From: a virus
Strand: one strand, 5' to 3'
Length of the DNA: 64,000 nucleotides
Virus record (IMG/VR): IMGVR_UViG_3300027816_000051
Span: 224,261-288,260 of that record
A model generated the notes under the pieces. It was given only the letters and a program-made list of their open reading frames with translations, had not been told where the DNA came from and made no database searches. Position numbers and translations under genes: made by a program. Below, one piece after another: positions 12,353 to 64,000 of the stretch (positions within the stretch are counted from its first letter, which is position 1; each line of letters starts with the position of its first letter).

Positions 12353-13936
12353 TTAGGTTGATACCATCTGAATTTTATATGTCCTTGCAATCTGTTCGTA
12401 ATTGTTCTTATTGATATTTTTAAAGACCGACCTCTTATATACAACTTTGTTGGTTTGACTATCTCGGATTGGTCCTTGGAAATTCCAAACAATTAAATCT
12501 TTTTTAGTGGTTGGGTCTTCTATGGTCATACCAACTTCTCCGTCTATATAACTAAGACCTTTAACACGGAATTGCATTACCATATCATCCTCAACATTTG
12601 CTTCGGCTTTAAAGTTTGATAGTACATTGGATAATACCTTTTTGATAGATTCACTAATAATACTTTCAGCCATGGTTGAAGTTTCATCATTTCCACTCAA
12701 TTGTTGGGCTAACATCATAGGACTTTTACAAACTTCACCATCACCACCCAATTGTTCGAAATATGTTGGTGCGTTTTGAACGAGATAACTTGTTCCTTTA
12801 TCACCCATTGCAAATACTCTTGCACCTTTGGCTAATTTTTGAACCCTTGGGTCTTCAATGAATTTAGCGGGAACCCCAACACATCCATAACTTTGATTCG
12901 CATTTGCGATTAATTTAATTGAGTTCAAATATTCTTTTGGTACCTTACCCGCAGATAAGTCGGCTTTTAATACGTTTCTTAAATCTTCACTGGCTGTTAG
13001 TCTCCCTTCAATATTGGGAATACCGTGAATCGCGGCAGCCATTTGTTTACCCCCTTGGTCTTTCAAATTGAATACATTTTTACCTTTACCAGTATATCCC
13101 GTATTACTACCTAAACTTGATATGTTATAAATGCCCTTTGCTAAAAAACGTTCTTTGTAGTGGTCAACAACAAAATAAGCAGCATCGGCTATACATATTT
13201 TTGATGACTCATCCCATCTTCTTCTTGAGTCTTTTACACAGGATTCTTTTGTTGTAAAATTACTTGCGGTACAAAGACGAGGAGACGCTTCTAATTTTTG
13301 ACCTTTTGCGTCATCACCGGGTACCGGACTATTTTTACACCAATCCGCGTGAGTATAACTTTTACTATCTGATATTGATTTTTGTTCATTAGCACCATCA
13401 ACAACTTGGGTGTGAAGTACGTATTTACTACCTGTATCAAAAAGATATATCAAATTGTACTTTGGGTCGTAAACGAAAAACGGTTTGTCGTTTAATTTTC
13501 TTTTTTCAATGTATGTTAATTCAGCATCGATTCTTGGGGTATAGTTATATTTTGTACCTACAGTTTCGGATTTCTTTTCCAATTCTGATTTTTGTTTAGC
13601 AACTGGATTTACAACAATTGGTTTGGTTTGTAGATTGTCTTGATATCCAGCATAACCTCCTTGTTGACCAAGTCTACCCGTATTTAAACCCGTAAATTTC
13701 TTCACAGGTTCCACCGGTTTTGTTGAACCGAATACTTTTGTTTTGATTGCTTCTTTTCCCGTACCGGTGGCTAATCTATATGTTTTTTGGTTTTTTAATT
13801 TATAATAGTAGTTGTCACCATCTTTCATGTAATCGTACTTACCATCATAATTGGTGACATAGGTTTTCTGTTCGTTGATAACTGATTCGACAATATTAAC
13901 TAAATCCGACTCAGTGAGTCTTATTACTTTTCCCAT
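12353..13936 (-). CDS. Tagged virion-type protein with L,D-transpeptidase-like domain
   Basis: The 527-aa protein opens with the tag MGKVIRLTESDLVNIVESVI-NE|Q (residues 1-22). Residues about 153-380 look like a YkuD-type L,D-transpeptidase. An opening strand pair reads FFVYDPKYNLIYLFDTG, His304 is in AAIHGIPN, and the nucleophile candidate Cys352 is in SYGCVGVP. Such enzymes act on peptidoglycan stem peptides. Around residue 422 a second tag-like helix (MAESIISESIKKVLSNVL) precedes a C-terminal beta domain, suggesting a modular fusion or an internal processing site. A TATTTATA box lies 13 nt upstream of the ATG. Delivery with the virion to act on the host wall is inference. Confidence 0.8.
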   Translation of the reverse strand: MGKVIRLTESDLVNIVESVINEQKTYVTNYDGKYDYMKDGDNYYYKLKNQKTYRLATGTGKEAIKTKVFGSTKPVEPVKKFTGLNTGRLGQQGGYAGYQDNLQTKPIVVNPVAKQKSELEKKSETVGTKYNYTPRIDAELTYIEKRKLNDKPFFVYDPKYNLIYLFDTGSKYVLHTQVVDGANEQKSISDSKSYTHADWCKNSPVPGDDAKGQKLEASPRLCTASNFTTKESCVKDSRRRWDESSKICIADAAYFVVDHYKERFLAKGIYNISSLGSNTGYTGKGKNVFNLKDQGGKQMAAAIHGIPNIEGRLTASEDLRNVLKADLSAGKVPKEYLNSIKLIANANQSYGCVGVPAKFIEDPRVQKLAKGARVFAMGDKGTSYLVQNAPTYFEQLGGDGEVCKSPMMLAQQLSGNDETSTMAESIISESIKKVLSNVLSNFKAEANVEDDMVMQFRVKGLSYIDGEVGMTIEDPTTKKDLIVWNFQGPIRDSQTNKVVYKRSVFKNINKNNYEQIARTYKIQMVST

Positions 13937-13948
13937 GTTTTTTTTCTA

Positions 13949-13956
13949 TATAAATA
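13949..13956 (-). promoter_or_regulatory. TATTTATA box (putative phage late promoter)
   Basis: GATATTTATAT on the coding strand, 12 nt before the ATG of the transpeptidase-like gene. Confidence 0.6.
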
Positions 13957-14018
13957 TCATAATCAGTCAGAAATTATGAACCTCGTACGCCGGAACCGGG
14001 AATTTTCTTAAAACGTAA

Positions 14019-14026
14019 TATTTATT
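14019..14026 (+). promoter_or_regulatory. TATTTATT box (putative phage late promoter)
   Basis: AATATTTATT 16 nt before the ATG at 14043. Confidence 0.55.
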
Positions 14027-14042: not shown

Positions 14043-14321
14043 ATGAAAAAAAGTATAAAATTAACCGAAGCCGAATTGATAAAGGTGATAAAAAAGGTTA
14101 TTAAAGAATCGAATCTTTCTGAATCCATGTTACCAGGAACTTACGCCATGATGGCAGCAGAAGAAGCCGCATCTAAAGTTTCACAAATGTTAATGAACGA
14201 ATATTCAAGATTTGCCGGACCTGAACAAAAAGGGTCTATTAAGAATATGTTTTTGAAAATGTTTTGTGAACGTCTTGAAAGTATCATCTTGAATAAAGAT
14301 GAAGAAATGGGTCAAGATTAA
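14043..14321 (+). CDS. Small tagged protein (92 aa)
   Basis: I start at the ATG at 14043, not the in-frame TTG at 14025, because MKKSIKLTEAELIKVIKKVI-KE|S is then a clean example of the shared tag. The remaining 70 residues are helical (YAMMAAEEAASKVSQMLMNE ... SIKNMFLKMFCERLESII) with no known domain. Next to other tagged genes and downstream of a TATTTATT box. Probably a virion-packaged or structural small protein; function unknown. Confidence 0.82.
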   Translation: MKKSIKLTEAELIKVIKKVIKESNLSESMLPGTYAMMAAEEAASKVSQMLMNEYSRFAGPEQKGSIKNMFLKMFCERLESIILNKDEEMGQD

Positions 14322-14471: not shown

Positions 14472-14948
14472 ATGGGACAAAGAATTATCATATCAGAAGA
14501 AGATAAAAACCGTATAAAAGGTTTATACGAACAAACCAGTAGTAAACCATTTAATTTCTTCACATATAAGGACACCGTACACAATATGATTGAATCCATG
14601 ACATCTTTAATGGAAAACATTGAGAGGTCAAAACTGTGTCAATCATTGGACAATCAACTCCAACCGACTTTTGGTTTGGTGGACGATTTGGTTGCAAGAA
14701 TGGCGGCAGATAATGGTATGAGTGAAGGTGAGTCTATTAAGTATGTTTACGATACTTGGAAACAACAAAAAACAGGTGGTATGCCACTTTTAATGAAACT
14801 AATTGGTGGTAACGTAAGTGTCTCAAAAGAAATGGTGGACAAATTATATGCCCACATTAGAACCAAACAAAACGGAGCGTTATTAACCTCCATCATATCG
14901 GACATATTTGGAAGTGCCGGTATTAAACAAATACCAATGTGTTCTTAA
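14472..14948 (+). CDS. Tagged helical protein (158 aa), paralogous tag to next gene
   Basis: The tag variant MGQRIIISEEDKNRIKGLYE|Q is followed by an all-helical body (VHNMIESMTSLMENIERSKL, LVDDLVARMAADNGMSEGES). No catalytic motif. The tag is nearly identical to that of the next gene while the bodies are unrelated, direct evidence that the N-terminus moves as a unit. Function unknown. Confidence 0.82.
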   Translation: MGQRIIISEEDKNRIKGLYEQTSSKPFNFFTYKDTVHNMIESMTSLMENIERSKLCQSLDNQLQPTFGLVDDLVARMAADNGMSEGESIKYVYDTWKQQKTGGMPLLMKLIGGNVSVSKEMVDKLYAHIRTKQNGALLTSIISDIFGSAGIKQIPMCS

Positions 14949-14961: not shown

Positions 14962-15522
14962 ATGGGACAAAGAATTATCATATCCGAAGGGGACAGAAAA
15001 CACATAAGAGGTTTGTACGAACAACCAACTTCAACACCTGAAGAAAACACACCATTTTTAGAGTGGGCGGAAAACGCTGAGATTACACCATTTATTGCAC
15101 CAAACCCATATAGTGGTGGTGATTTGAAATTAGGTGTACAAATTAAAAGTTCAACCGGTGAGGATTTATCTAAAATAAGTCAAACCGCAAACCAAAAGAC
15201 AATCATAAACCTAATTGAAAGAATGGATATCATTACCGAAAACGGACAGGTTGTTCATACTTTCACAACCGAAGAACAAGATGGAAGTGGTAGTGGTTTA
15301 TTTAATTTCTCAACGTTTAAACCCACATATGAAATAATCGATAACTCATTTGTTGTTTACACCACCATAAGTGAAAATTCTGAGGTGATTCAAAAACTTA
15401 AACAGTTTACAAATAAAACAAATAAATTCATTGTTACTGTTACCCCTCGTCTATCAAACGATTTATTAAAGACTGGTTCCAAATTATTCAAAACCAAGTC
15501 AAACATATTAATGGTAAACTAA
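14962..15522 (+). CDS. Tagged beta-rich protein (186 aa)
   Basis: Start at 14962 (MGQRIIISEGDRKHIRGLYE|Q); the frame extends back to 14908 but would overlap the previous gene and bury the tag. The body after residue 21 is beta-rich (LKLGVQIKSSTGEDLSKISQ ... YEIIDNSFVVYTTISENSEV). No family recognised. Same tag subtype as its upstream neighbour with an unrelated cargo. Confidence 0.83.
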   Translation: MGQRIIISEGDRKHIRGLYEQPTSTPEENTPFLEWAENAEITPFIAPNPYSGGDLKLGVQIKSSTGEDLSKISQTANQKTIINLIERMDIITENGQVVHTFTTEEQDGSGSGLFNFSTFKPTYEIIDNSFVVYTTISENSEVIQKLKQFTNKTNKFIVTVTPRLSNDLLKTGSKLFKTKSNILMVN

Positions 15523-15548: not shown

Positions 15549-15875
15549 ATGGCAAACAAAATTGAATTAATTGATTTATTGACAAGACTATATGATTACA
15601 TGGAAAATCGTGCGGATGCAGACGGTAGTTCAGAAGGGTATGTTGCAAACGAGGAAATGGGTTTAATGGGTGAAATTGATGATATGTTACATGCGTTGGG
15701 TCAAAAAGGTTTTGGTAGTGATGTCAGAGCGTCCCTTGATTCAAAATACAAATTCGGTGGTTTCAGTTTAAATGAAAACTCAAAAAACAGTAGTAAGAAA
15801 AAGGTTATTAAATTAAACGAATCAGAACTGATTAAGGTGATTAAAAAAGTTATTAAAGAAAACTCAAAAATATGA
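15549..15875 (+). CDS. Small protein carrying the tag at its C-terminus (108 aa)
   Basis: The N-terminal 75 residues are helical and acidic (MANKIELIDLLTRLYDYMEN). The last 25 residues read KKKVIKLNESELIKVIKKVI-KE|NSKI, almost identical to the N-terminal tag of 14043-14321, but here at the end of the protein. A 4-nt ATGA overlap joins it to the next tagged gene. The C-terminal position suggests either that the module works at either end or that this gene was fused in frame to a tag whose cargo was lost. Confidence 0.82.
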   Translation: MANKIELIDLLTRLYDYMENRADADGSSEGYVANEEMGLMGEIDDMLHALGQKGFGSDVRASLDSKYKFGGFSLNENSKNSSKKKVIKLNESELIKVIKKVIKENSKI

Positions 15876-16534
15876 AACCAAAAACATTAAACGAAGAGAT
15901 TAACCGTATTAAAAACATCATGGGTTTCATTAATGAATCCATGGATGAACCTACTGGTGAAACTCAAGAATTTAACGGTAAAACCTATCCAAGTCACCAC
16001 GGTAGTCCCTTTGATAGAGGTAGTGCTGATAGTTGGTATAGCCGTGGAACCAACCCACATAAAAACCATCCTGAATATTCCGAAGATTTAACCCCCGAGG
16101 AAATCGATGCGTATTATGCTGGATTCTATTGGAATGAGAGACATGGTGACCATAAAGATTATGGTGATGATGACGATAGAATGAGAGATGATGATTTGGA
16201 TGAATCTAATCATGAATTAAATGAAGATGAGGTAAACTATAATATTAATCGAGCTATCCAATGTTTCTTAAATAAGAAAGGTATTAAAGATGATGCCGGT
16301 CAACCACTAAAGATTGATGGTTCTATTGGTAGATTACCTAATTCAAAATCAGCTCAAGCCATTGCAAAATACCAAGAAAAACTTGGTGTTTATCCTGTGG
16401 ATGGTGTTTGGGGTCCTGATACCATGGAAAAAATGCCACCGAAAGATTTGGCGATGTATAAAGATTGTAAATCTGAATATGGTGACATATTCGATAAGGG
16501 TCTCCACATGTTGGGACTCGACGAAGAAAAATAA
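15872..16534 (+). CDS. Tagged protein with C-terminal peptidoglycan-binding-like domain (220 aa)
   Basis: A tag variant (TLNEEINRIKNIMGFI-NE|S, residues 5-22) is followed by a His/Tyr/Asp-rich, probably disordered linker (residues 25-110). The C-terminal domain contains AIQCFLNKKGI, then IDGSIGRLPNSKSAQAIAKYQ and YPVDGVWGPDTMEKM, the repeating D-G-x-x-G-P pattern of PG_binding_1. It would anchor the protein in murein. Overlaps the previous stop by 4 nt and ends at a strong terminator. Confidence 0.83.
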   Translation: MKPKTLNEEINRIKNIMGFINESMDEPTGETQEFNGKTYPSHHGSPFDRGSADSWYSRGTNPHKNHPEYSEDLTPEEIDAYYAGFYWNERHGDHKDYGDDDDRMRDDDLDESNHELNEDEVNYNINRAIQCFLNKKGIKDDAGQPLKIDGSIGRLPNSKSAQAIAKYQEKLGVYPVDGVWGPDTMEKMPPKDLAMYKDCKSEYGDIFDKGLHMLGLDEEK

Positions 16535-16588: not shown

Positions 16589-17740
16589 ATGAAAATAATT
16601 ATTTCAGAATCACAATTCATAAAACTTAATCAATCAATATCACAAGAAAGTGAATTGAATGAGAACCTATTGAGGTATTTTATGGGTGGTTATAAATCCG
16701 CAAAAGATTTCGCGAAACTATTAAGAACAAATAAAACGATTTCATCAGAAATTCAAAACGTATTCAAGGACCCCGTCATGTATGGGAAATTTAATTTAGT
16801 TGGTGTTAAAACAGTAGACGATTTCGCAAAATTAATTGAGTCTAATAGATATACACCAAAATTGAAAGGTCAGTTTGAACTTTTTATTTTAAAATCCCCG
16901 AAAGTTTATCCAAATCTAGTGGATATTTCCGCAAATTCTTTAGTGAAGAACAAAACGTTTTTAGAAAAATTTAGACCAGAGATGATGCAAGGTGAATCGG
17001 AATTTAGAATACAATTAAAAAAATCACGATACAACGATTATGCTATAAATAAAATTGTTGAGAAAACTAAACATCTAATCAAAAAATCAACAAATCAATT
17101 TACATCAGCATTAGCACCAATTCAAGCCGAAATCGGGACATTAAAACCCGATTATGTAAAACTTTTTGGTATTGAGAAGTATGATAACTTGGTATCAGCA
17201 CTATTGACTAATAAAATAAATCAGACTCAATTCATCAATACTTTAAGAAGAACAACCGGTAATACCAAAAAAGTTGGTAGTAATATGGTTAAAGTGTTTA
17301 GGGCGGGACCTAAGAAAGATAATTTTTTCTATGTTAGTCCTAGTAAAAAATATGTTACAAAAAACTATGCGTCAAATAATCCAAACGCTGTTCAACCTAT
17401 GTATGTTAATTTGGGTAGAACTTTAGATTTAACTCGTTTAGACCCAAGAGCGGTGAAGATGGACTCTTTTGTAAAATATTTAAAAGATTCGGGTGTAAAA
17501 TTCACAAAAGAAGAAGAAATTAAATTATTAGGTAAATTCCTCAAACCACAAAGTAAAACATCATTTGGAAAAAGTTACCATGACGTACAACTGTGGCACA
17601 TAATTAACACATCACCCGAAATCGCGAGTGCAGCATCAAGAAGTGGTTTTAATTCAATTAAACAATTTGAAACATCATCATTCGCACCAGATGCGTGGAA
17701 TAAAGGTGACTTTTCATATTTTATTTTGAAACAACCTTAA
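16589..17740 (+). CDS. Tagged protein with ADP-ribosyltransferase-like C-terminal domain
   Basis: 383 aa. The tag is MKIIISESQFIKLNQSISQE-SELNE (residues 1-24). A helical repeat module follows at residues 105-165 (NKTFLEKF ... INKIVEK) and is shared with 60829-62964. Residues 233-383 show the R-S-E order of ART folds. Arg239 is in VFRAG, FYVSPSKKYVTKNYA carries the Ser motif at about 248-252, a strand-rich MYVNLGRTLDL follows, and Q-F-E is at 360-362 in the place of the Q/E-x-E motif. The chain ends in FSYFILKQP like phage ART-PolyVal-type domains. T4 Alt is a packaged ADP-ribosyltransferase, so the combination with a delivery tag is suggestive. Activity is unproven. Confidence 0.68.
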   Translation: MKIIISESQFIKLNQSISQESELNENLLRYFMGGYKSAKDFAKLLRTNKTISSEIQNVFKDPVMYGKFNLVGVKTVDDFAKLIESNRYTPKLKGQFELFILKSPKVYPNLVDISANSLVKNKTFLEKFRPEMMQGESEFRIQLKKSRYNDYAINKIVEKTKHLIKKSTNQFTSALAPIQAEIGTLKPDYVKLFGIEKYDNLVSALLTNKINQTQFINTLRRTTGNTKKVGSNMVKVFRAGPKKDNFFYVSPSKKYVTKNYASNNPNAVQPMYVNLGRTLDLTRLDPRAVKMDSFVKYLKDSGVKFTKEEEIKLLGKFLKPQSKTSFGKSYHDVQLWHIINTSPEIASAASRSGFNSIKQFETSSFAPDAWNKGDFSYFILKQP

Positions 17741-17973: not shown

Positions 17974-18504
17974 ATGTATAAAAATTTTAGAGTTTCAGAA
18001 GAGGAGAAAAAACAAATTCTTGAAATGCACCAATCAAATGGATATAACGCCGCAAGTAATTTAATTAACGAACAAGGTGGACAAGACCCCGCTTGGATTA
18101 AACAATCCGACTCAAATCTTAATTTTACTTCAAAAGCAAAAATGGGAATTGAGGATGGAACTCAGGCGACTTATGTGGCTGGTGGGTCGGGAGACGACAG
18201 TTTTGTAATTATTATCCCAAAAGGAAGTAAATTTAAAGTATCTCCAAGTGGTTCATTCCTTTTGTCAATAGGATATCTTGTGAGTAAAACCGCACTATTT
18301 CAAAATGGACTTCAACCCGCAACACTTTTCACTGATAATTTAGCAGTGTCAAAAGCACTTCATAGTGGTAAATTAAATGCAAGGGCGGTTAATATTGCAG
18401 GAACTGTTGATGGAAATATAATTTATGAGGGGGGTTCAACAGCGTTTAGATTACCTAACACTGGTGAAGCTTTATCTCAGAGAATTCAAAAATCTTTTGC
18501 ATAA
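17974..18504 (+). CDS. Tagged hypothetical protein (176 aa)
   Basis: A longer tag variant: FRVSEEEKKQILEMHQ, then SNGYNAASNLI-NE|Q at residue 33. The body looks beta-rich with Gly-containing turns (TYVAGGSGDDSFVIIIPKGS, KFKVSPSGSFLLSIGYLVSK). No known domain. Own TATTTATT box and a shared bidirectional terminator downstream. Confidence 0.8.
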   Translation: MYKNFRVSEEEKKQILEMHQSNGYNAASNLINEQGGQDPAWIKQSDSNLNFTSKAKMGIEDGTQATYVAGGSGDDSFVIIIPKGSKFKVSPSGSFLLSIGYLVSKTALFQNGLQPATLFTDNLAVSKALHSGKLNARAVNIAGTVDGNIIYEGGSTAFRLPNTGEALSQRIQKSFA

Positions 18505-19231: not shown

Positions 19232-20524
19232 ATGAGAAAAGTAATACGATTAACAGAATCGGACTTAGTGGAGGTTGTTAAAAATATTTTATTAGAACAA
19301 AATTATTCAGAGATACAAGGAACCACTGACCCTACACCAATTGCAAAACTTTCGGTTTTAACTGATGCTGGTCTACCGGCTGATAATAATAATTTTAGGG
19401 GGAGATGGGTTTTAGAACAACCAAACATAGGTAAAACTTTTAGTGAAACAAAAAATTTAAGTCTATTTAGAAATTTAACACCAAAATCACCCGCTGGTGG
19501 TGAGAATTATATTGAGATGATGGTACAAAAATTTATACCTAATGAACTAAATCCTGATAAAACAATTAAAAAGAAAGGTTATCCCGATACGAGTACCCCA
19601 CCTGTTGTAGAATCTTTAACTAATAGTGGTTCAAAAACATTTAATGTTAAATACAAAGACCCCGATGGTAAACATACTTGGAGTCTCATTAGGATAGTAG
19701 CATCAGGTAATGGTTTGTTAGCCTTATCTAGAGCGTTATTAGAAGCTCAAGGAACACCAAATAAAATTACAATTGGTATGTCACAAACTAAAAGGGCTAG
19801 CGGTAGTTATGTATATAATGCGGCAAAAATTGGTAATATCACACCAACGTTGAATCTAATATCGAATATGGTAACCGCATCCATTATTACTAAGAGTGGG
19901 TTACTTTCTCCAACATTAAAACAATACGTCAGTGGTGATATGGTTAGTATTGGTACATATTTTAACAGGTCTAACGAAGACATTGCAAAATTAATCGCGA
20001 ATTCGTTATACTTTTTTGATACATTTTTTATTCCCGAAAACGAAATTCAGGTTTTCAGAAAAAAAACAGATTCGTCAGGAAAGTTACTTTTACCAAACTA
20101 TAATTCTCAACCTTTTTTAGATTTGATAAACACAATGCCAGTGTTTAATGACATCCAAGGGTTGGTGGATGGACAAGGTGGATACCAAAAATGGAAAAAT
20201 GTTGAACCAGAGGTTATAAAATTATATGACAAATATAATGAATTAATTAAAAATGCTGTTGTTGAACAATACAAGAAAAGATTATTAGCATTTTTTACTG
20301 ATGTTTATAAAGACGCAAATCAAGCAAATCAACTTGTAAGTTCGACACAATTTAGGTCTGCTAGTATAAAAATTGAGGGTGCATTTAACAACGCGGTCGA
20401 AGGTGTGAAATACACAGGTACGGTAAAAATTGATAATGCAACATCAAAAACAACGGCTAACACCTATGAAGTCGGTAAATCAAAACCTATTACAAATACC
20501 CCAAAACAACCTAACCAAAAATAA
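19232..20524 (+). CDS. Large tagged protein of unknown function (430 aa)
   Basis: The tag MRKVIRLTESDLVEVVKNIL-LE|Q is nearly the same as that of the transpeptidase-like protein at 12353-13936. The body has a beta-rich region (residues 100-180, with TFNVKYKDPDGKHTWSLI) followed by a helical region (190-380) and a Thr/Lys-rich tail. No catalytic motif or known domain. It has its own TATTTATA box and ends at a strong terminator. Probably packaged with the virion, by inference from the tag. Confidence 0.82.
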   Translation: MRKVIRLTESDLVEVVKNILLEQNYSEIQGTTDPTPIAKLSVLTDAGLPADNNNFRGRWVLEQPNIGKTFSETKNLSLFRNLTPKSPAGGENYIEMMVQKFIPNELNPDKTIKKKGYPDTSTPPVVESLTNSGSKTFNVKYKDPDGKHTWSLIRIVASGNGLLALSRALLEAQGTPNKITIGMSQTKRASGSYVYNAAKIGNITPTLNLISNMVTASIITKSGLLSPTLKQYVSGDMVSIGTYFNRSNEDIAKLIANSLYFFDTFFIPENEIQVFRKKTDSSGKLLLPNYNSQPFLDLINTMPVFNDIQGLVDGQGGYQKWKNVEPEVIKLYDKYNELIKNAVVEQYKKRLLAFFTDVYKDANQANQLVSSTQFRSASIKIEGAFNNAVEGVKYTGTVKIDNATSKTTANTYEVGKSKPITNTPKQPNQK

Positions 20525-22265: not shown

Positions 22266-22727
22266 ATGACCCAAATTATAGTAACAGAAACGCAGTTAAA
22301 GAACCTCACAAGAAGATTAAACGAAGATTCTATGGATAGTAAGTATAGAATGGAATGTAAAGCCGACGTTGATTATTATAAAGTAATGTACAACGGTATG
22401 GAAATTGAATATGTATATCCATTAAATATTAACGTAAATTTTGACATCGATTTAGAGGGAAGAAGTTATGGTATTAAAAGTGTATCCGTATATAATATCG
22501 TTGGTCCATCTGAAGTAGAAATGGAGATAGAATACTACCCTGAAAATAGTGATGATTCAGTAGATGAAACCGTTGTTGTGCCACTAAATTGGGATAATGT
22601 TGTAATAGATAAGGATGAGAATTTGGGTTATATTGGTATTGGTGATATTATACAAATTTCATTGAAAAATGATGAGAGTGGTAAAATCGTTTGTGATACC
22701 ATTACAGTAAGTAGTTTCTCTATATAA
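22266..22727 (+). CDS. Tagged beta-rich protein (153 aa)
   Basis: The tag MTQIIVTETQLKNLTRRL-NE|D is followed by a beta-sandwich-like body of about 130 aa (YKVMYNGMEIEYVYPLNINV ... VVPLNWDNVVIDKDENLGYI) with acidic turns. No family recognised. Own TATTTATA box. Interpreted as virion-associated because of the tag. Confidence 0.8.
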   Translation: MTQIIVTETQLKNLTRRLNEDSMDSKYRMECKADVDYYKVMYNGMEIEYVYPLNINVNFDIDLEGRSYGIKSVSVYNIVGPSEVEMEIEYYPENSDDSVDETVVVPLNWDNVVIDKDENLGYIGIGDIIQISLKNDESGKIVCDTITVSSFSI

Positions 22728-23997: not shown

Positions 23998-25598
23998 AAT
24001 TCTGAAAGTCTATCGTTTAAATAACTGTTGAAATCGTTATCATCAATATCTGGTGACCATCTGTCGTCAATATAGAATCTTGGTTTTTCATAGTACTCAC
24101 CTAGTAATTCATGAAAAACACATTGGGCATCATCGTCACATTTTTCAAAAAACTCATCCATTTCATCTTCACCATAACCCATGTTATCTATTATGTTTTT
24201 TAAATTAATTCGTATGGTTGCACCTCTATCATTTAGACTTAAAACATCTCCGTAATCACTAAGTGCGTTTCGTAGTTGCTTCATTGCATAATCATAGTAA
24301 GATGAATTTGCGGAATCGGAAAACGCCGAACCTAATGCACCTCGAACTTCATAGTTATCGTCATACTCTTCTATTAATTCATCTATAGACATGTTTGGTT
24401 CAAATTCTTCACCTGCTCTATCTCTAAGATAATCAATGATTGTTCTTTTATTATCTTCGTCTGCATGGTATTCTAACGCAGATTTCCAATCATCATAATA
24501 CCCATCAGTTAATTCCCATATATCACCTGATAATAAAGTCTCGATAAAACCTATTTTTTTTGTACGACCACTGGCATCTCTCGATTGTCTAATGGTCCAA
24601 TCCCCCTCAACGTAATATGGAACAGAATCCGGTTCAATATCCCAATCAAAAACCGTATCGGGTTCTTGAAAATCTTGGGTTATACCCATCTTCTGTAGTT
24701 TTCTTTTTAGTTTACGAGTGTTGAATATTTCAGGTTTAGATTGATATATCTGTGTAATTTGTTCATCAGATAAATCGGCAATACTGAAATCATCACCACT
24801 ATTGTATTCACTACCAAAACCTTTTACGATGTCTGTATTTAAAATTAAATCAACAACATAGGGATAAAATTCTGGTTTTGGTTTACTATTTTTAGGACCT
24901 TTTAATTGATAAACAATCCCATCCTCATCACCAATCGCGGCGGTTAAATGACTTTTGTTGACTGTGTAATTATCTTTAAGTTTTTTTGTTTCTCTTAACG
25001 AGAATATCGTGTTACTTGAATTTGTTCTACCACAGTGACCCATGCGGTTACATTCTTCTCTTGAATCATTCGTATTTAAATCCACCCAATAGAAACCAAC
25101 ACCGTCTTTATTTCTGTAGTCTTTTACGATGTCGTTTTTTTCAACATAATTAATATCTCCTTCTCCTGAAGTTAACTCTTGGTGCCACTTTCTTGATTCA
25201 TTGTAAAGTTGACCAAAATTTAAGTTTTTATTATCACCCAAATTTCCGTTTAAACCAATGCGTATCCAGTCCATTATTGATACGATATTACTTCTCATAC
25301 CTCTAACACCAGCACTTTTATTTATTGCGTCGATACCCATTTTTCTTCTATACTCAGGGTCTTTTCTAAAAGTTTCTCTGGCTTGTTTTTCTTCATCTTC
25401 AGGTACCGCACTCATCATATGTTCTAATCTTTGTTGTGCGAATACATCGATTAATTTATTGGCTAATATGATTGATAACGGACCCCCCAATTCTTCTATT
25501 TGGTCAGCATTATCTTGACTCAAACCAAGTTTGTTTACCAATATATCTTTCCTATTGGCTTCAAGAATTAATTGCTCAATTAAATTTATTGTCTTCAT
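23994..25598 (-). CDS. Tagged PcfJ-like-motif protein (534 aa)
   Basis: Short-type tag MKTINLIEQLI-LE|A, close in style to the T4 capsid-targeting sequence. Around residues 180-250 the protein has EECNRMGHCGRTNSSNTIFS-LRE followed by LTAAIGDEDGIVYQLKGPKN-SKP. This is the H-C-x-x-x ... I-f-S-L-R ... v-Q-i-k-G-x-x-N pattern of PcfJ-like proteins. The C-terminal half is helical and very acidic. Adjacent genes encode two further large Cys-motif proteins with similar tags, so they are likely paralogous virion proteins. 4-nt overlaps on both sides show an operon. No biochemical function known. Confidence 0.8.
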   Translation of the reverse strand: MKTINLIEQLILEANRKDILVNKLGLSQDNADQIEELGGPLSIILANKLIDVFAQQRLEHMMSAVPEDEEKQARETFRKDPEYRRKMGIDAINKSAGVRGMRSNIVSIMDWIRIGLNGNLGDNKNLNFGQLYNESRKWHQELTSGEGDINYVEKNDIVKDYRNKDGVGFYWVDLNTNDSREECNRMGHCGRTNSSNTIFSLRETKKLKDNYTVNKSHLTAAIGDEDGIVYQLKGPKNSKPKPEFYPYVVDLILNTDIVKGFGSEYNSGDDFSIADLSDEQITQIYQSKPEIFNTRKLKRKLQKMGITQDFQEPDTVFDWDIEPDSVPYYVEGDWTIRQSRDASGRTKKIGFIETLLSGDIWELTDGYYDDWKSALEYHADEDNKRTIIDYLRDRAGEEFEPNMSIDELIEEYDDNYEVRGALGSAFSDSANSSYYDYAMKQLRNALSDYGDVLSLNDRGATIRINLKNIIDNMGYGEDEMDEFFEKCDDDAQCVFHELLGEYYEKPRFYIDDRWSPDIDDNDFNSYLNDRLSEL

Positions 25599-27412: not shown

Positions 27413-28116
27413 TTTTTTATACCGAATTGAGGTGGGGTTAACGGTCTTACATAGGTATTATCTCTTTGTACTTGATATTGATTTTGATACAACTGAACTG
27501 TTGATGTAGGTGTTGGTGTGGGTGTTTTAATTTGTGCAGCAAATTGTTTATTTAGGTTATCTATTGAGGATTTCCATTTTGGATTTGAAGATAAATCAAA
27601 TTCCACATTTTTAGCAACATTTTTTGTATACCATTTTCCATCTTTGTAACCATATACATAAGCTTTATCACCGGGATAATTGTATTTGTAATCAACACCG
27701 AATTTACTTGTTGTGGTCGTACCTGTAGTAGTTGTTGTTTGTTTTTGTACAGGTGCCGCGACCACAGTTTCAGGTTTAAAAAATTTCTTACGGTCTAAAA
27801 CATCTTTACCCCCACCATTATAAAACTTATCATATGTACCCTGACCAAATTCTTTATCAATTTCTTGTTGTTGTAAGGGGAAAAGATATGAACCTTTAAG
27901 TCCTTTTTTATTCTGTGCCGAAACAATTAATATTTTATTAATGGCGTTTTTACTAACACCAGCAGGATACGGAATTTGTAATTTTTTAGCTTCCACATCT
28001 GTAATAGGTCCAAAACCCGCATCTAACGCCGCTTGTTGTTCTGGTGTTACATTTTCTGAAATAACTTCCCTAAGTATTCTTCTTATGGTTAAATCTATGT
28101 TTTTGTGTGATTTCAT
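27409..28116 (-). CDS. Tagged protein with Thr/Pro-rich linkers (235 aa)
   Basis: The N-terminus KNIDLTIRRILREV-ISE|N is a tag variant. It is followed by PEQQAALDAGFGPITDVEAK-KLQIPYPAGVSK, a Thr-rich stretch (residues 127-140) and a small beta domain (YKYNYPGDKAYVYGYKDGKW). The repeat of Y-x-Y-x-x-P-G/D-G-K resembles the tyrosine-rich segment that follows the tag in 12353-13936 (YDGKYDYMKDGDNYYYKLKN). A TATTTATA box lies 16 nt upstream. First gene of the leftward four-gene operon down to 23704. Function unknown. Confidence 0.8.
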   Translation of the reverse strand: MKSHKNIDLTIRRILREVISENVTPEQQAALDAGFGPITDVEAKKLQIPYPAGVSKNAINKILIVSAQNKKGLKGSYLFPLQQQEIDKEFGQGTYDKFYNGGGKDVLDRKKFFKPETVVAAPVQKQTTTTTGTTTTSKFGVDYKYNYPGDKAYVYGYKDGKWYTKNVAKNVEFDLSSNPKWKSSIDNLNKQFAAQIKTPTPTPTSTVQLYQNQYQVQRDNTYVRPLTPPQFGIKK

Positions 28117-28799: not shown

Positions 28800-29396
28800 A
28801 TGGAAAAACTCATAAAGAAAATATTAAAAGAATACGTTGAGAAGTCATTAGAAGAACTAATGCCAACATACCATTATGAAAAAAATATAAACGTAAGATT
28901 CAAAGGTGCCACCGAATATACCGTAAGAAAATATACAAAAACTAATGACCGAATATCAACTAGAGATGTGGGTACATATGTTTTATCTAAAAGGGAAAAA
29001 TCTGAAGCGGAAGCTAATATTATGGAAGTGATGAATGTTGATGTACCAATAGACTTACATTTGGGTATTGTTGTGTATAAAGTTGATATTAATACGGAGA
29101 GAATAAACTATTTTTCTAAGGACGATAAGTACGAAACTTTAAGAGACACACTAAAGGATGATAATCCCGCAAACCTTTACTTAATGGACCCTGAAACACA
29201 ATCAGTTGGAGACATTTTGTTTTTTATTGTTAAAGAAAACAAAGTTGTAACAACTTTTTGGGAAAGGTCTTTTAATTTAGAATCAGTTAAAGAAAAGAGA
29301 AATTTAGATGTTGTAATAACTGCAGACCAAATTCATGATTATGCGGTAAAAAAGAAAGATGATTCTTTTGATTTTAATAAATGGAGAAGACAATAA
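28800..29396 (+). CDS. Tagged hypothetical protein (198 aa)
   Basis: The N-terminus MEKLIKKI-LKE|YVEKSLEEL is a short amphipathic tag variant. The rest is a mixed alpha/beta domain (INVRFKGATEYTVRKYTKTN ... HLGIVVYKVDINTERINYFS) with a Trp near the end. No family recognised. Co-transcribed with 28205-28795 (4-nt gap). Confidence 0.75.
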   Translation: MEKLIKKILKEYVEKSLEELMPTYHYEKNINVRFKGATEYTVRKYTKTNDRISTRDVGTYVLSKREKSEAEANIMEVMNVDVPIDLHLGIVVYKVDINTERINYFSKDDKYETLRDTLKDDNPANLYLMDPETQSVGDILFFIVKENKVVTTFWERSFNLESVKEKRNLDVVITADQIHDYAVKKKDDSFDFNKWRRQ

Positions 29397-53195: not shown

Positions 53196-53196
53196 A

Positions 53197-55107: not shown

Positions 55108-55115
55108 TAAAAAAC

Positions 55116-59223: not shown

Positions 59224-59478
59224 ATGAACATTATAATCTCAGAAAAACAATATAAACATTTATTTGGTGGTAACCAATTAGATGAACAAGGTGATGACCC
59301 GGCCGCAGCTCAACCATCGAGCGGTGTTGGTAGTTCAGGTAGTAAAGAAGGTTATCCTGAGGTTGGAAAATGGGAAAGTGGTGTAACCCGAGGTCCAGCC
59401 AATCAAGTCGGAGTCACAAAATGGTCCGACGTTGTTGGTTCACTTTTAAAAAGGAGTCATGCAAATCCACTCAAATAA
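59224..59478 (+). CDS. Small tagged protein with disordered body (84 aa)
   Basis: Tag MNIIISEKQYKHLFGGNQ-LDE|Q, then a Gly/Ser/Ala/Pro-rich stretch (DDPAAAQPSSGVGSSGSKEG) and a Trp-containing tail (YPEVGKWESGVTRGPANQVG, then VTKWSDVVGSLLKR). Mostly unstructured apart from the tag. Could be a minimal cargo or a spacer protein. Followed by a large tagged membrane-active gene. Confidence 0.78.
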   Translation: MNIIISEKQYKHLFGGNQLDEQGDDPAAAQPSSGVGSSGSKEGYPEVGKWESGVTRGPANQVGVTKWSDVVGSLLKRSHANPLK

Positions 59479-59511: not shown

Positions 59512-60807
59512 ATGATGTACAACAATAAATTAGTGATATCTGAGTCTGAAAGAAGAAGAATCTCAAACATTTATGAAAATTCTTTTTCTTTGGATTATGT
59601 GATTACAGATTGGGTATCACCTGATGAAAAGTATGTTATCTTTCTTGATGAACTTTTCGATATTGAAAACAAAACCAAATTAGGTAATGTTTGGGAAAAT
59701 TTTGACAACTTTAAATTTTTCTTAAGACATTCATTTGAAGTTTCAACAACAGTACCTCAACAAATCAAAGAAGAAGCACTTCAAACCTTAGATTCATTTA
59801 TTTTAACTGAGTCAACACAAAATTTTACACACTTAAAGCCGATATTCAAACAATTACTCCAAGAAGATTGGGGTATTCTTGGTGATTTAGCTAATTGGGC
59901 TAAAGATACCGCTGTAAGTGCTTACACGGGATTTACAGATTTTGTTTCTACAAGTTATGAAGGGGCAAAAAAATTAATTGGGGCAATATCAAAGGGTGAA
60001 TGGTCTCGTGTATTAGATTTAGTTAAAAAAGGCGCTTTATATGTAGCAAGAAAAGTTAGAGGGATGTTATACCATCCTGTTGGTTTAGCTTTAGATGCAA
60101 TATTAGTTGCCACAGGTATAGGTAAGGGTATCGCTTGGATACCATGGGCAATTGCGGTTGGTTTAGACATTTACGAATTTATTTCAGGTGACTATGAAGA
60201 CCCTGAATTACATTGGGGGTGGAGATTATTATTCTTTGCCTGTGATATTTTAGGGTTAGTAGTGACGGGAATGGCGGCCAAAGTACCAAGACAATTATTG
60301 TTAGGTTTAGTAAGTAGATTTGGTAAGACTCAACAAGGTTTAAAATTGGCGGTACAAAGCTCACCAAAAATACAGTCATTTTTAAAAAGTGTCAGTGAAG
60401 GTTTATCAAGTGTTAAAGGTTTTATGGGAAAAGCACTATCGTATTTCCAAGTTAAATCACCTTTTATGTATAAATTCTTTTCAGGTATTATGGGTGGTAT
60501 TGGTAAATTTATAACAAAACTCACAAATTTAATTTCTTTCTTACTTGGGGCAACTTTAAAAGGTGCCGTGAAATTAGGTAAAGGAGCATTGAATGTTCTT
60601 AATACACCCGGTAAACTCGCAATGAAATTAGGTGGTGGAAAGGGAACCGCCGCCGCGGCAAACGTATTAGTCCCCGCTGCGGCTATTGGTACAGCTGGAG
60701 AATATATGAAAAGAAAAGAAATGGAGAAATCCGTAGAACAAGAAAAGAAGGTTGAAGCTGGTCTTACTTCGGGCCCTCCTTCTGAATATAACCCTAAAGA
60801 TTTATAA
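59512..60807 (+). CDS. Tagged hydrophobic-helix protein, possible pore former (431 aa)
   Basis: Tag MMYNNKLVISESERRRISN-IYE|N. Residues 25-115 form a helical domain. From about 120 the protein becomes rich in Gly, Ala and hydrophobic residues with long segments such as HPVGLALDAILVATGIGKGI-AWIPWAIAVGLDIYEF and FFACDILGLVVTGMAA. Gly-zipper-like helices follow (LGATLKGAVKLGKGALNVLN) and the tail is charged. It resembles membrane-penetrating or pre-toxin regions, not a regular transporter. Packaged proteins of this type could open the inner membrane during DNA entry; this is inference. The next gene begins 21 nt downstream. Confidence 0.75.
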   Translation: MMYNNKLVISESERRRISNIYENSFSLDYVITDWVSPDEKYVIFLDELFDIENKTKLGNVWENFDNFKFFLRHSFEVSTTVPQQIKEEALQTLDSFILTESTQNFTHLKPIFKQLLQEDWGILGDLANWAKDTAVSAYTGFTDFVSTSYEGAKKLIGAISKGEWSRVLDLVKKGALYVARKVRGMLYHPVGLALDAILVATGIGKGIAWIPWAIAVGLDIYEFISGDYEDPELHWGWRLLFFACDILGLVVTGMAAKVPRQLLLGLVSRFGKTQQGLKLAVQSSPKIQSFLKSVSEGLSSVKGFMGKALSYFQVKSPFMYKFFSGIMGGIGKFITKLTNLISFLLGATLKGAVKLGKGALNVLNTPGKLAMKLGGGKGTAAAANVLVPAAAIGTAGEYMKRKEMEKSVEQEKKVEAGLTSGPPSEYNPKDL

Positions 60808-60828: not shown

Positions 60829-62964
60829 ATGGAAAATAAAAATGCAGAATTAATTAGAAAAATGATGACTCTAATGGAAAATGTAGAGTCTAAAATAGTT
60901 TCTAAAGAAATGGAAGATGTGCATGAAACATCGACCGAAAATGAATTGGAAGAAAATGCTATAGTAAAGAGTATTGCTGCCGATTTAAAAACTTTACAAG
61001 GTGCTGAAAGAGCAGCCGCAATGGCGAAATTGAGTGCTGAATTTGAAGGTCCTTTAAAAAATTTATTAAAGGATGCCGAGGCGGCATCGATGTTAAAACA
61101 GTCTAATATTAGAACAGCAGAAGAACTTGTAACTGCGGTGGCTAAAGGTCTTAATTCTGAATTAAAAGGTAAATTAGATATAACAATTTTAAGATATAAT
61201 AGTAGTCCAAGATTAGTCAATGCTGCGGCTGAAAATTTAACACAAAACAAAACTTTTTTATCGAAATATAAAGACCAAATTAATGGGGGTCAACCGGCTT
61301 TTGAAAGAGCCCTAATGGACTCTAAAAAATATAGTAAAGACGCAATCACCAAGATTGTTGAGAAAGTTAACTCTAAGTATGGTATGAAGGTTACTGACGA
61401 CATGGTTAAAGGTATCAAGGTAAAAGAACCAGTTAAAACAACCACAAAAACAGCAACCGGTGGTGCCGATGCCGCCAAATCCGTAGATGATGCTGCTAAA
61501 ATTAAACAAGGTAAAGACATACTAAAAACAGGTGGTGGTAAAAAATATTACGAGTGGTTAAAGAAAATGTTCGAAAAATTTGGAAAAGATAGTAAAACCG
61601 TTGTTCAAAACGGTGTTAAGAAAGTATCCGTTTCTAAAAGACTCCTACAATGGGCATTAGTCGCTGGAGGTGCGTACCTTTTATATTCCTTTTTCACTGA
61701 TTCCGACGGTAATGATGTTGTAGTTACGGATGAAGGAGGTAAAGTTATCGACCCTAAATTAACCGACGGTATGACAGATTGTTTGAGAAATCTTATCGAT
61801 AAAGGTATGGGTAGATTAACCCAAAGTAGTTCAGGTGGTCCTGTTGTTGTGGTTGAAAAAACCGGTAATGCTGATTATGATAGTGTAGGTGGTTTGATGT
61901 TCTTTATGAATGGTAGAGTAATATCTGGCGACGGTGCAACAAAACGTGGTAATTGGAAGTGTAAAGGTGGTCAAGTTCAAAAAGTGGATGAGACTTCAAT
62001 GATTAATGAACAATCTGAAACCGAAATGGTGAATGACGTTGAGACAATGATTGATTTATTAGATTTTCCAGTTTCAGGTAGTGATTTATCACAAGCAAGA
62101 ACATTATTATCAAAATATGCAAATAGTTCAAAAGGAAAAGAATTTTTACAGCTGTATAAAAACACTGGTTTAGGTAGTGGTTCATTACAAAAATCTTTAG
62201 ATTATATTGCAACATTCCAAGCGGGTTCTGTTTTATCTAAAAATAAAATGTACGAACTTATTAAACAAATTGAATCCGGTAAATCGGGTGGTGGTGAAAA
62301 TCAAGGAGGTAATCAAACCGCAGATTTATCTGGTATTGAAATTACATGGGACGGCGACAAAAAGATAGAAGATGGAGATGGTGATAAACCAGTACCAGTA
62401 CCTCAACCTCAAAAATATTATCAATGTGACGCGTTTCCGTTTAGATTTGGTTGTAAAAATGAAAAAATTAGAGAAGTACAAAGATGTTTAGGAATGGAAT
62501 CAAAATACCAAACAGGTAATTTTGGTCCATTGACCTTATCTCAAATGAGAAACAAATTTGGTATGGATGTTATTGATGAAATTACTTACAATGGTATTAT
62601 CAGTAAGTGTAAGGGTTCGACACCAAAACCTCAAACAGGTTCAACGGTAACAACTGGTTCAACGGTAACAACAACTGGTTCAACGGTAACTCCACCTAAA
62701 CCAACCGAACCAAGTAATGTTGAATCACCAAAAGTTGCAAGTGCAACAAAAGCAACACAATTAAATCGTGAAGGTTGTAAAGCTCTATTCAAAACTATTG
62801 ACGAAAGAGACCAATCTCAAGGAAAGGCAACCGCCACAAGTTCGGAAAAAGAACAACTTAAGTTCTGTATGCAACAATATAACTTTGGTGTAGGTAGTGG
62901 TGTAGGTAGAATGAAAAGAAGATATGGTTTAACATCTTCAGGTGGTGATAGAGGTATTAGATAA
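60829..62964 (+). CDS. Large tagged multi-domain protein (711 aa) with PG-binding-like domain
   Basis: N-terminus KNAELIRKMMTL-ME|N is a tag variant. Residues about 120-190 hold the helical module shared with the ART-like protein (NLTQNKTFLSKYKDQINGGQ ... DAITKIVEKVNS). A membrane helix lies at 273-290 (LLQWALVAGGAYLLYSFF). A second processing-like site, M-I-NE|Q, is near residue 390. A cysteine-containing PG-binding-like domain (CDAFPFRFGCKNEKIREVQR-CLG ... NFGPLTLSQMRNKFG) falls at about 530-600. Next come T-G-S-T-V-T repeats (about 610-632) and a C-terminal Cys-containing helical domain. Probably a structural or ejected protein that bridges membrane and murein. Confidence 0.75.
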   Translation: MENKNAELIRKMMTLMENVESKIVSKEMEDVHETSTENELEENAIVKSIAADLKTLQGAERAAAMAKLSAEFEGPLKNLLKDAEAASMLKQSNIRTAEELVTAVAKGLNSELKGKLDITILRYNSSPRLVNAAAENLTQNKTFLSKYKDQINGGQPAFERALMDSKKYSKDAITKIVEKVNSKYGMKVTDDMVKGIKVKEPVKTTTKTATGGADAAKSVDDAAKIKQGKDILKTGGGKKYYEWLKKMFEKFGKDSKTVVQNGVKKVSVSKRLLQWALVAGGAYLLYSFFTDSDGNDVVVTDEGGKVIDPKLTDGMTDCLRNLIDKGMGRLTQSSSGGPVVVVEKTGNADYDSVGGLMFFMNGRVISGDGATKRGNWKCKGGQVQKVDETSMINEQSETEMVNDVETMIDLLDFPVSGSDLSQARTLLSKYANSSKGKEFLQLYKNTGLGSGSLQKSLDYIATFQAGSVLSKNKMYELIKQIESGKSGGGENQGGNQTADLSGIEITWDGDKKIEDGDGDKPVPVPQPQKYYQCDAFPFRFGCKNEKIREVQRCLGMESKYQTGNFGPLTLSQMRNKFGMDVIDEITYNGIISKCKGSTPKPQTGSTVTTGSTVTTTGSTVTPPKPTEPSNVESPKVASATKATQLNREGCKALFKTIDERDQSQGKATATSSEKEQLKFCMQQYNFGVGSGVGRMKRRYGLTSSGGDRGIR
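62634..62694 (+). repeat. Short coding tandem repeat (TGSTVTT x3)
   Basis: ACTGGTTCAACGGTAACAAC-like units in three copies inside 60829-62964, encoding a Thr/Ser-rich linker. Confidence 0.7.
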
Positions 62965-62975
62965 AATTAATCATA

Positions 62976-63578
62976 ATGGAATTAAAAAATTATATTAAAG
63001 AAACTTTATTAGAGGAAAGAGAAAGAAAACTTTATTCATCTTTTGACGAATTAAACAACATTAGAGATAAAGAATATTTTCTTGAGAGATATTTTATTAT
63101 CACCTCAAATTTACTTAACGAGGGATACTCGTTTGAGGAAGTTGAATCCGCAATGAACGAAATTGAAAATCCATTATCTGGTCTTGACCTAACTGGTGAT
63201 GATTTATTAAGTGCGGGTGGTTCACAATTGAAAGAGTACGCAATCAATCTATTATTAACATTTATTTTTGGTGGTAAGAATCAAGGAATGATTACAACCA
63301 TCTCAGTGGTTTTTGCCGATTACGATGTTAGAGATATACTCAAACCTTTTAAAGATGAACCAAATTGTATGTCTCATATGCCAAAAATGATTGATGGAGT
63401 ATTAGAAGCTTTATCAAGATATGTGGCAGGTTCTGCTGTTGGTGTAGATAGGAATAATTACGGATTAAATTTAGGAGGTTTAACTTCAGGATTTGCTGGA
63501 AATATATTTGGTGAGGTAATAAAAGATTCTAATATAGGTGAAACCATATCGGACAAAATATGTAAATTTATTCATTAA
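62976..63578 (+). CDS. Tagged helical protein (200 aa)
   Basis: Tag MELKNYIKETL-LE|ERERK, then a helical domain (FERYFIITSNLLNEGYSFEE-like region), NEIENPLSGLDLTGDDLLSA and a hydrophobic segment (YAINLLLTFIFGGKNQGMIT). The C-terminal half is Gly/Ala-rich with GGLTSGFAGNIFGEVIKDSN. It may interact with a membrane or with the neighbouring proteins. Eleven nt downstream of the 711-aa gene, so co-transcribed. Confidence 0.76.
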   Translation: MELKNYIKETLLEERERKLYSSFDELNNIRDKEYFLERYFIITSNLLNEGYSFEEVESAMNEIENPLSGLDLTGDDLLSAGGSQLKEYAINLLLTFIFGGKNQGMITTISVVFADYDVRDILKPFKDEPNCMSHMPKMIDGVLEALSRYVAGSAVGVDRNNYGLNLGGLTSGFAGNIFGEVIKDSNIGETISDKICKFIH

Positions 63579-63580
63579 CA

Positions 63581-64000
63581 TGAAACTTACAAAAAAAGAA
63601 ATATTAGAAAATAAAAAAGTATTAAAAGAGGACACTCTTGAAAATATTTTAATGATTGCGGGATTTGTACCTGTAATTGGTGAAATTGCTGACATTATAT
63701 TGATTATTAGATATATCTATAAAAAAGAATATTTATACGCGGCATTGATGTTAGTGGCTTTAATACCAACCGTGGGTGATTTCATTGTAAAACCATTCAT
63801 AAGAGTATTAAAAGGTGCAGGTATTGCAGGTAAAACAGCACTAAGAAGTAGTGACGATTTAGCTAAATATTTAATGCAAAATCCAAGTGCAAAAGAACAA
63901 TTCTTAAAAATGTCCAAACACTTTGACGATGCTGGTGTTAAACAAACAATTAACTCAGTTGGTGGAATCAATAAAGGTTGGGCACAAAAAATGACTGATG
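63581..64000 (+). CDS. Tagged membrane-active protein, cut by window edge
   Basis: ATG 63581, open to the right edge (140 codons visible). MKLTKKEILENKKV-LKE|DTLENILM is a tag variant. It leads into two P-x-x-G-E/D hydrophobic hairpins (GFVPVIGEIADIILIIRYIY and LMLVALIPTVGDFIVKPFIR), as in pre-toxin-type and membrane-inserting proteins. A helical Ala/Lys-rich region follows (GKTALRSSDDLAKYLMQNPS). It lies 2 nt after the preceding stop. Likely a relative in layout of 59512-60807. C-terminus and any effector domain lie outside the window. Confidence 0.72.

Follow-up and report, generated by a model that had tools for sequence, protein, structure and literature searches.

In bacteriophage T4, otherwise unrelated proteins (IPI, IPII, IPIII and Alt) carry a short N-terminal propeptide, the capsid targeting sequence (CTS), which the protease gp21 removes by cutting after (I/L)-x-E, and the gp23 capsid protein has a cleavable propeptide as well. 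Asp at the cut position of IPIII is reported to block processing, and gp21 also cuts Alt at its C-terminus, a C-terminal cut being inferred for gp21 itself as well (PMC9026906). The phages phiKZ and SPN3US contain many internal head proteins, several of which are trimmed by the prohead protease after Glu and some of which are thought to be ejected (PMC10052503, PMC5694885). For SPN3US, nine protease substrates are known; their N-terminal propeptides measure 20 and 24 residues in two cases and 111-254 residues in the rest (PMC10052503). In phage N4 and phiKZ, a virion RNA polymerase enters with the DNA to start early transcription (PMC4496689, PMC13282480). The present work concerns a stretch of 64,000 nucleotides (nt; hereafter the window), which forms the right end of the 288,260-base virus record IMGVR_UViG_3300027816_000051 (positions 224,261 to 288,260) and in which about 26 proteins carry a related kind of terminal peptide, here called a tag. 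The tags are most likely T4-type capsid-targeting propeptides with new sequences and a much larger cargo set, for which we infer packaging, cutting and injection.

The kind of system is already known, namely the T4 CTS. Shared with T4 are the short N-terminal propeptide on unrelated proteins, the (I/L)-x-E preceding the cut, and a gp21-family protease accompanied by a gp23-family capsid protein with a (here predicted) cleavable propeptide. The tags differ from those of T4 in being often longer and in having a TESD or TESQ core; by eye, the final (I/L)-x-E is all that they have in common with the T4 IP tags (MKTYQEFIAE↓A in IPII and IPIII, where the arrow marks the cut). They are also more numerous, with 5-24 profile-detected tags per large record and about 25 in the window against four named tagged proteins in T4, and sigma factors and cell-wall enzymes are found among their cargos. 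The likeness to phiKZ and SPN3US lies in large phages with internal head proteins trimmed after Glu (predicted in the present case), whereas the many short tags from few shared families set this system apart from SPN3US. Compared with the RNA polymerases of N4 and phiKZ, the candidate here, an ECF sigma factor, would act by recruiting the RNA polymerase of the host and would be delivered by a removable tag.

An earlier note on the window had listed 25 genes with a 12-35-residue amphipathic helix at the N-terminus and one, gene 15549, with the helix at the C-terminus (Table 1). Its reading frames and coordinates are correct in 25 of 26 cases, the last gene starting at 63580 and not at 63581, one base off. 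The 24 N-terminal cases in complete window genes (excluding 15549 and the open-ended last gene) all have (I/L)-x-E at residues 7-36, compared with 16 of the 42 unlisted genes beyond position 12353. The position of the motif is regular, as the note had expected: it lies at residues 13-24 in 22/24 listed genes, against 6/42 unlisted genes (Fisher 4e-10) and 8.3±2.2 in shuffled sequences. Residues 13-24, which the shuffles share, were chosen so that the I-T-E or L-T-E of the tag core stays uncounted. Given that the listed genes had been picked partly by (I/L)-x-E, the independent test is provided by database tags found by their core alone. Amphipathicity was upheld for type B (hydrophobic moment 0.51 against 0.29 in shuffled sequences) and not for type A (0.23 against 0.27), for which a generic amphipathic helix was rejected. 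Two subtypes had been proposed and more exist: type B (IRLTESDL), type A (IIITESQ), type C ((S/T)EEEK.RI..MH ... (I/L)xEQ) and short (MKILKLIESIILE↓A). The tag of 15549 is indeed C-terminal, likewise in the same gene of two near-identical records; the cutting of T4 Alt by gp21 at the C-terminus is a precedent for it (PMC9026906). A profile built from 15 window tags was searched in its own record; at E <= 10 it found these 15 tags and no others, which places the long tags together at this end of the record.

Both major families were recovered from uncultured phages. Patterns back-translated from the cores MKIII(S/T)E(S)Q and KxIRLTESDL each match at least 120 stretches of the viral_contigs collection, such that the loci scanned here are samples and not totals; a scrambled pattern with the same codons occurs in one stretch across the whole collection. 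A bacterial and archaeal genome collection yielded 0 stretches for the stricter KxIRLTESDL pattern and 9 for MKIII(S/T)E(S)Q. The family consensus is KxIRLTESDL..RIVKRVI-x-E for type B and MKIIITESQ...(I/L)-x-E for type A. Type C comprises 12 genes, including several near-duplicates, in which (I/L)-x-E-Q is mostly kept and its distance from the core varies by eye. The core is N-terminal in 267/278 matches; three others come from gene 15549, whose C-terminal tag was matched in three records, and eight are internal, most of which directly follow an internal Met and are therefore probable start-call errors. No core was matched in 2497 control genes. A short-peptide tblastn search of phage records with two tags gave no match, which says little because a query of 22-23 residues scores poorly, and no description of these tag families was found in the open-licence PMC literature.

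The tags end in a fixed Glu. In 124 distinct type B tags, positions that the search left unconstrained are conserved as well (mostly R, I, V, K, R, V, I, x); Glu occupies one position in 100 of them, and I, V or L stands two residues earlier in 118. The column of the Glu has an entropy of 0.98 bits, and the columns beyond it 3.0 to 4.1 bits, the conservation ending abruptly. Non-redundant sets were made by dropping N-termini identical over 45 residues and open reading frames (ORFs) under 45 amino acids, followed by near-duplicates, which reduced type B from 124 to 114 and type A from 121 to 93. (I/L)-x-E follows the core in 110/114 non-redundant type B N-termini (shuffled 32.6±4.5) and in 68/93 of type A (shuffled 31.3±4.2). 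In type A, neither (I/L)-x-K (26; shuffled 32.1) nor (I/L)-x-Q (9; shuffled 9.6) is enriched, and Glu with I or L three residues earlier is mildly so (47; shuffled 29.4). (I/L)-x-D is not enriched in place of Glu (type B 2/114, shuffled 7.7; type A 24/93, shuffled 18.6±3.5), which matches the Asp block reported for T4 IPIII (PMC9026906).

The lack of Asp also bears on a different reading, in which the tags serve for docking to another phage structure or to a host protein (membrane, replication compartment, RNA polymerase) and the Glu is a helix end that is never cut. We consider this very unlikely. The strong amphipathicity of type B would suit it, as such helices can bind membranes or partners; however, a helix end would allow Asp, type A is not amphipathic, and tags of varied length and sequence keep their Glu at the cargo boundary.

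The last of these points emerges from a comparison of cargos. Clustering covered the proteins encoded in the tag loci and in the window and used the part beyond residue 24; 17 of 178 tagged cargo clusters contain more than one tag type (types A-D, one recognised by a loose pattern and short tags being missed), in agreement with the proposal that tag type is not tied to cargo type. The cluster of gene 23994 has members with type A, type B, short or no recognised tags. Homologous cargos with tags differing in class and register were then aligned, with one pair per cluster and class combination; 19 pairs were selected and 18 scored, one being dropped because the aligned position lay too near the start. 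In 14/18 pairs, the partner protein also shows a Glu at the matching alignment position, preceded two residues earlier by I, L, V or M; identity in the other columns ranges from 11-53% and is in most cases about 30% (binomial p 4e-5 against 0.30). Eight of the 18 pairs are clear tag-type exchanges by eye, and Glu is aligned in six of these eight. Examples are MKKIIRLTESDLTRIVNRVINE↓NQEEVDRILDKI versus MKYLITESQYEILLE↓NQNYVDSLLDKI, MKIIITESQFRMMIKE↓SGIRDI versus MKKLIKE↓TGIRDI, and MKIIITESQLKFINE↓ALGVPD versus MRELIRQVLRE↓ALGVPS. A general test of Glu coincidence in any homologues of different register was discarded as not discriminating (Glu 477/1391, other conserved residues similar).

Tag exchange could also arise if shared 5' ends, consisting of a promoter and a gene start, had spread as DNA cassettes by recombination with a functionless peptide. 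In line with this, the upstream word TATTTAT and the tag occur together and some cargos exchange tags. Nevertheless, codons vary synonymously at invariant residues (Thr ACA 70, ACT 29, ACC 15, ACG 10; Leu six codons), which indicates that the peptide is selected and not the DNA, and the tag form changes jointly by lineage; a cassette origin is hardly credible on this evidence. TATTTAT lies within 40 nt upstream of 16/25 listed window genes and 6/65 other window genes (3e-7), and of 196/321 tagged and 544/2312 untagged genes in the tag loci (8e-40, the loci being redundant), compared with 3.2% of 2497 genes in control loci. It is mostly placed 11-13 or 19-26 nt ahead of the start codon. Of the head-region genes, 6/20 have it upstream, including those for the terminase, portal, protease and a scaffold-like protein. 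A difference between tagged and untagged genes exists for other A+T-rich words too, far smaller than for TATTTAT. The late promoter of T4 is TATAAATA, the reverse complement of TATTTATA; TATTTAT is a putative late promoter. It was also observed that TATTTAT starts 11-13 nt before many start codons, e.g., at window genes 14962, 29833 and 59224, a spacing that, if this is a -10 element, leaves almost no leader and suggests possible leaderless late mRNAs.

The head machinery needed for processing is encoded in the same record. The earlier note had called for a search for a T4 gp21-like protease, and one was found as a Peptidase_S77 match (PF03420) at 28,951-29,427 of the record (E 2.9e-23), which also matches the PHROG head maturation protease (E 1.8e-40). 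Next to it are encoded a large terminase, a gp20-like portal (E 1.5e-65) and an acidic protein that is scaffold-like but matches no family, along with a gp23-like capsid protein (E 3.1e-68), which matches T4 gp23 chains in the PDB. The propeptide of this capsid protein ends QASYLINE↓S, shortly ahead of the mature domain. In related records, all 35 capsid propeptides read end in a predicted (I/L)-x-E site before the mature domain (LINE, LIYE, LLNE or LLTE, followed by A or S), while an outlying second capsid-like protein in record G009 has LVTE and then T. The presumed main substrate of the protease and the cargos would accordingly share a motif, and a capsid propeptide with this ending speaks against docking. 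As a separate observation, proteins of 194-214 amino acids in three records (L506, L507 and L508 in G032, G040 and G042) match the first ~100 residues of the capsid protein, including the propeptide, and then diverge; these are possibly capsid-propeptide users or capsid decoys.

Tags and protease occur together across records. PF03420 is present in 35/48 tagged records of at least 100 kb and in 14/14 of those of at least 240 kb, in addition to the present record, and in 5/17 control records of at least 100 kb (35/48 versus 5/17, Fisher 0.003). The controls are contigs matched by two arbitrary AT-rich 14-mers, the 17 being those of at least 100 kb among 160 matches listed, with 80 further loci beyond, so the comparison is small. 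The tag profile, which the note had suggested running against phage proteins, gave 5-24 matches per record in 14 large tagged records and 11 in this one; as the 14 were chosen for having the tag, the match count and not its presence is informative. The profile had no match in the 17 controls, including the five with protease, nor in Flavobacterium phage immuto, Rhodothermus phage RM378, Microcystis phage Mel-JY01 or a 484-kb uncultured phage.

Furthermore, the tag form follows the capsid lineage. The capsid proteins of records G032, G040, G041 and G042 share only ~60% identity with the one encoded here, and type B tags accompanying these divergent capsids read like TESDLHxIVKESVxxILxE, with Glu one helical turn later. 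This later-Glu form was found in 10/10 tags fetched from three of the divergent-capsid records and also at loci L168, L204, L206 and L212. None of 22 other records with type B tags has it, 41/43 of their tags being at the shorter spacing (Fisher 1/14950, about 7e-5, with 22 main-lineage records). The simplest reading is that each lineage has one receptor to which all tags are fitted, which lends indirect support to a tag that binds the scaffold or core, although tracking of this kind would also fit any other lineage-specific partner, as in the docking reading.

In the huge uncultured phages LR745206.1 and LR756502.1 (about 635 and 642 kb), a homologous DHH-type cargo starts MISKYNQFINE↓EVGLRNI and MLRKYGQFINE↓EVGFKNL, a T4-like tag (K-Y-x-Q-F-I-N-E) that is close to those of IPII and IPIII and has its Glu at the same boundary; the tag profile has no match in either record. 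Within 50-kb stretches of these two records (L534 and L535), a loose pattern finds T4-like N-termini on 5/68 and 7/78 genes for unrelated proteins. The same pattern finds 2/26 in a T4 stretch (the IPs), 1/44 in immuto and 0/90 in this window. These N-termini are perhaps another expanded capsid-targeting family.

The cargos are varied. Pfam families recognised in 148 distinct tagged proteins are Phage_lysozyme (4), LysM (3), sigma-70 regions (3), PG_binding (2), nucleoside deoxyribosyltransferase (1) and Hydrolase_2 (1), and NCBIfam finds sigma70-ECF in three tagged members (best E 3.6e-30). The sigma family comprises nine ORFs in the tag loci (two near-identical), all with type A tags, three of which follow an internal Met; in one crAss-like relative the tag is absent. 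Among the 25 listed window genes (15549 left out), the sole plausible named Pfam domain is PG_binding_1 in 15872 (E 1e-4, just under Pfam's cut-off). By eye, gene 16589 is a candidate ADP-ribosyltransferase, which would parallel T4 Alt; an AlphaFold model based on 3 sequences had a predicted local distance difference test score (pLDDT) below 50 at residues 1-31 and 223-383 and no fold match at E <= 0.001. Another cargo family, WCT, has a YGxxTKWCTT-like motif (window genes 25595-27412 and 33159-34754; homologues at L114, L153, L202 and L214). This motif occurs on proteins with several different tags, including type B and short; the family corresponds to no Pfam family, and its model (mean pLDDT 58) had no fold match at E <= 0.001. 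In addition, a hydrophobic VVGxxDPTGxVDxxN segment, which looks like a membrane-passage or pre-toxin-type domain, was seen in three tagged proteins (L045:2093-3103, L091:5462-6475 and L147:2191-3228), the first two of which precede a sigma factor.

This diversity is relevant to the possibility that the tags bring proteins to the prohead core for head assembly only, as scaffold-like helpers or DNA-condensing internal proteins that are cut and then remain or depart, with nothing being delivered. T4 IPIII also acts in head morphogenesis (PMC9026906), L-x-E stands ahead of a Lys/Arg-rich segment (AEYQGRKVQLGK...) in proteins whose N-termini differ, one of which is encoded ~1 kb from the capsid gene, and short-type (I/L)-x-E N-termini were seen by eye on head-module genes without a functional name (1635, 2237 and 7365 of locus L002). 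However, a cargo set of 178 clusters with A-D tags, including ECF sigma factors, lysozymes, LysM proteins and a nucleoside deoxyribosyltransferase, looks far beyond what assembly needs, and such a restricted role is judged unlikely.

T4-like targeting and processing, as the earlier note had read the tags, is supported by the fixed Glu, the hydrophobic residue two before it, the loss of conservation after it, the capsid-propeptide motif and the tags that differ up to the Glu. Late in infection, a promoter-like element also present before head genes would drive expression of many cargo proteins, each with a tag of ~10-30 residues. As in T4, the tag would bind the core of the assembling prohead and the cargo would be enclosed. 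The gp21-family (S77) protease is then predicted to cut after the Glu of (I/L)-x-E, and the capsid protein would be expected to mature by the same S77 protease after L-I-N-E. By analogy with the T4 internal proteins, the trimmed cargo may remain with the DNA and enter the next host with it. Injection would follow solely from this T4 precedent, and some cargos have plausible early-infection functions.

Several observations weigh against targeting, cutting and delivery as set out here. To our knowledge, no virion proteome or cut site is known for any phage of the lineage. In type B, (I/L)-x-K is enriched too (84/114, shuffled 33.4) because the entire helix is conserved, so the Glu-specific result rests on type A. 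The I-T-E or L-T-E of the tag core is also compatible with (I/L)-x-E, which therefore does not define a single final cut; (I/L)-T-E-S fits the protease motif as well, and tags may therefore be cut twice. Glu is unaligned in 4/18 junction pairs, and roughly half of the 18 compare forms of a single tag type that have diverged or start differently. In 51/178 tagged clusters, some members have no recognised tag, the pattern missing short tags. TATTTAT is common in the lineage, preceding 24% of untagged genes, and is absent within 40 nt of the capsid gene. Thirteen of the 48 tagged records of at least 100 kb lack the protease, all of them shorter than 240 kb and possibly fragments, while five control records have the protease without tags, so that protease does not imply tags. 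The capsid protein is of one family in all 35 protease-bearing tagged records, which are therefore one lineage and not independent cases, and among 50,697 phage records none has a capsid match over 80% of this one. The lysozyme and sigma-factor cargos could also act late.

On balance we lean towards the broader view that a large uncultured phage lineage has made the T4 CTS a general export signal, one that is transferable, late-expressed and self-removing and that places dozens of effectors in each virion, including sigma factors that would reprogramme host RNA polymerase as infection begins. If so, the lineage would act as a particle for protein delivery whose large cargo set exchanges fast, and the injected proteome of each phage could be read from sequence via the tag. 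Most genes of large phages are without known function; if the tag marks packaged cargo, many families would be labelled as virion-delivered at once, mature N-termini would be predicted and phage-encoded sigma factors in the virion would be indicated. The tags would also be a natural set for loading proteins into capsids. As far as searched, the tag families, their scale, the differing forms with a common Glu boundary, the change with capsid lineage and the tagged ECF sigma factors are new.

Table 1. Tagged genes of the window. ↓, predicted cut after the tag sequence; in the text, minus-strand genes are listed by their left end.
Tag type	Tag sequence	Tag position	Strand	Gene	Remark
B	MGKVIRLTESDLVNIVESVINE↓Q	13871..13936	minus	12353-13936	tag profile E 3e-9 (tag is a profile row)
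B	MKKSIKLTEAELIKVIKKVIKE↓S	14043..14108	plus	14043-14321	
C	MGQRIIISEEDKNRIKGLYE↓Q	14472..14531	plus	14472-14948	
C	MGQRIIISEGDRKHIRGLYE↓Q	14962..15021	plus	14962-15522	
B, C-terminal	KKKVIKLNESELIKVIKKVIKENSKI	15789..15872	plus	15549-15875	
	MKPKTLNEEINRIKNIMGFINE↓S	15872..15937	plus	15872-16534	PG_binding_1-like cargo
A	MKIIISESQFIKLNQSISQESELNE↓N	16589..16663	plus	16589-17740	
C	MYKNFRVSEEEKKQILEMH...NLINE↓Q	17974..18072	plus	17974-18504	
B	MRKVIRLTESDLVEVVKNILLE↓Q	19232..19297	plus	19232-20524	
A	MTQIIVTETQLKNLTRRLNE↓D	22266..22325	plus	22266-22727	
short	MKTINLIEQLILE↓A	25560..25598	minus	23994-25598	
short	MKILKLIESIILE↓A	27374..27412	minus	25595-27412	WCT cargo motif
short-type	MKSHKNIDLTIRRILREVISE↓N	28054..28116	minus	27409-28116	
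short	MEKLIKKILKE↓Y	28800..28832	plus	28800-29396	
A	MKILLSESQLKRLIESELTE↓F	29771..29830	minus	29477-29830	alternative cut E15
A	MKYIITESQLKKIIDSEIDE↓R	30406..30465	minus	29833-30465	
A	MGKNVILRESQLKRLIQYTTKQKLKE↓S	30906..30983	minus	30546-30983	
A	MKILISESQYKNVLKE↓Y	31233..31280	minus	31023-31280	
A	MSRKIIVTESQLKRLLDRMINE↓S	32157..32222	minus	31647-32222	best tag-profile match, E 8e-10 (tag is a profile row)
short	MRFTEILFDTLLE↓E	34716..34754	minus	33159-34754	
	MESNKINESNVLSILRGILSE↓E	40313..40375	plus	40313-40645	
A	MNIIISEKQYKHLFGGNQLDE↓Q	59224..59286	plus	59224-59478	
A/C	MMYNNKLVISESERRRISNIYE↓N	59512..59577	plus	59512-60807	
short-type, weak	MENKNAELIRKMMTLME↓N	60829..60879	plus	60829-62964	
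short	MELKNYIKETLLE↓E	62976..63014	plus	62976-63578	
short-type	MKLTKKEILENKKVLKE↓D	63580..63630	plus		gene running past window end

Other features of the window include a phage-encoded protein of the RuBisCO_large family (48707-49936; PF00016, E 1e-31), the gene for which sits within a run of glycosyltransferase and sugar-nucleotide genes at about 41115-57488. A 72-bp tandem repeat with 2.7 copies and a 96% match lies at 9819-10016, and its minus strand encodes a repeated CSKEKLLNALGVAKTANLIS unit.

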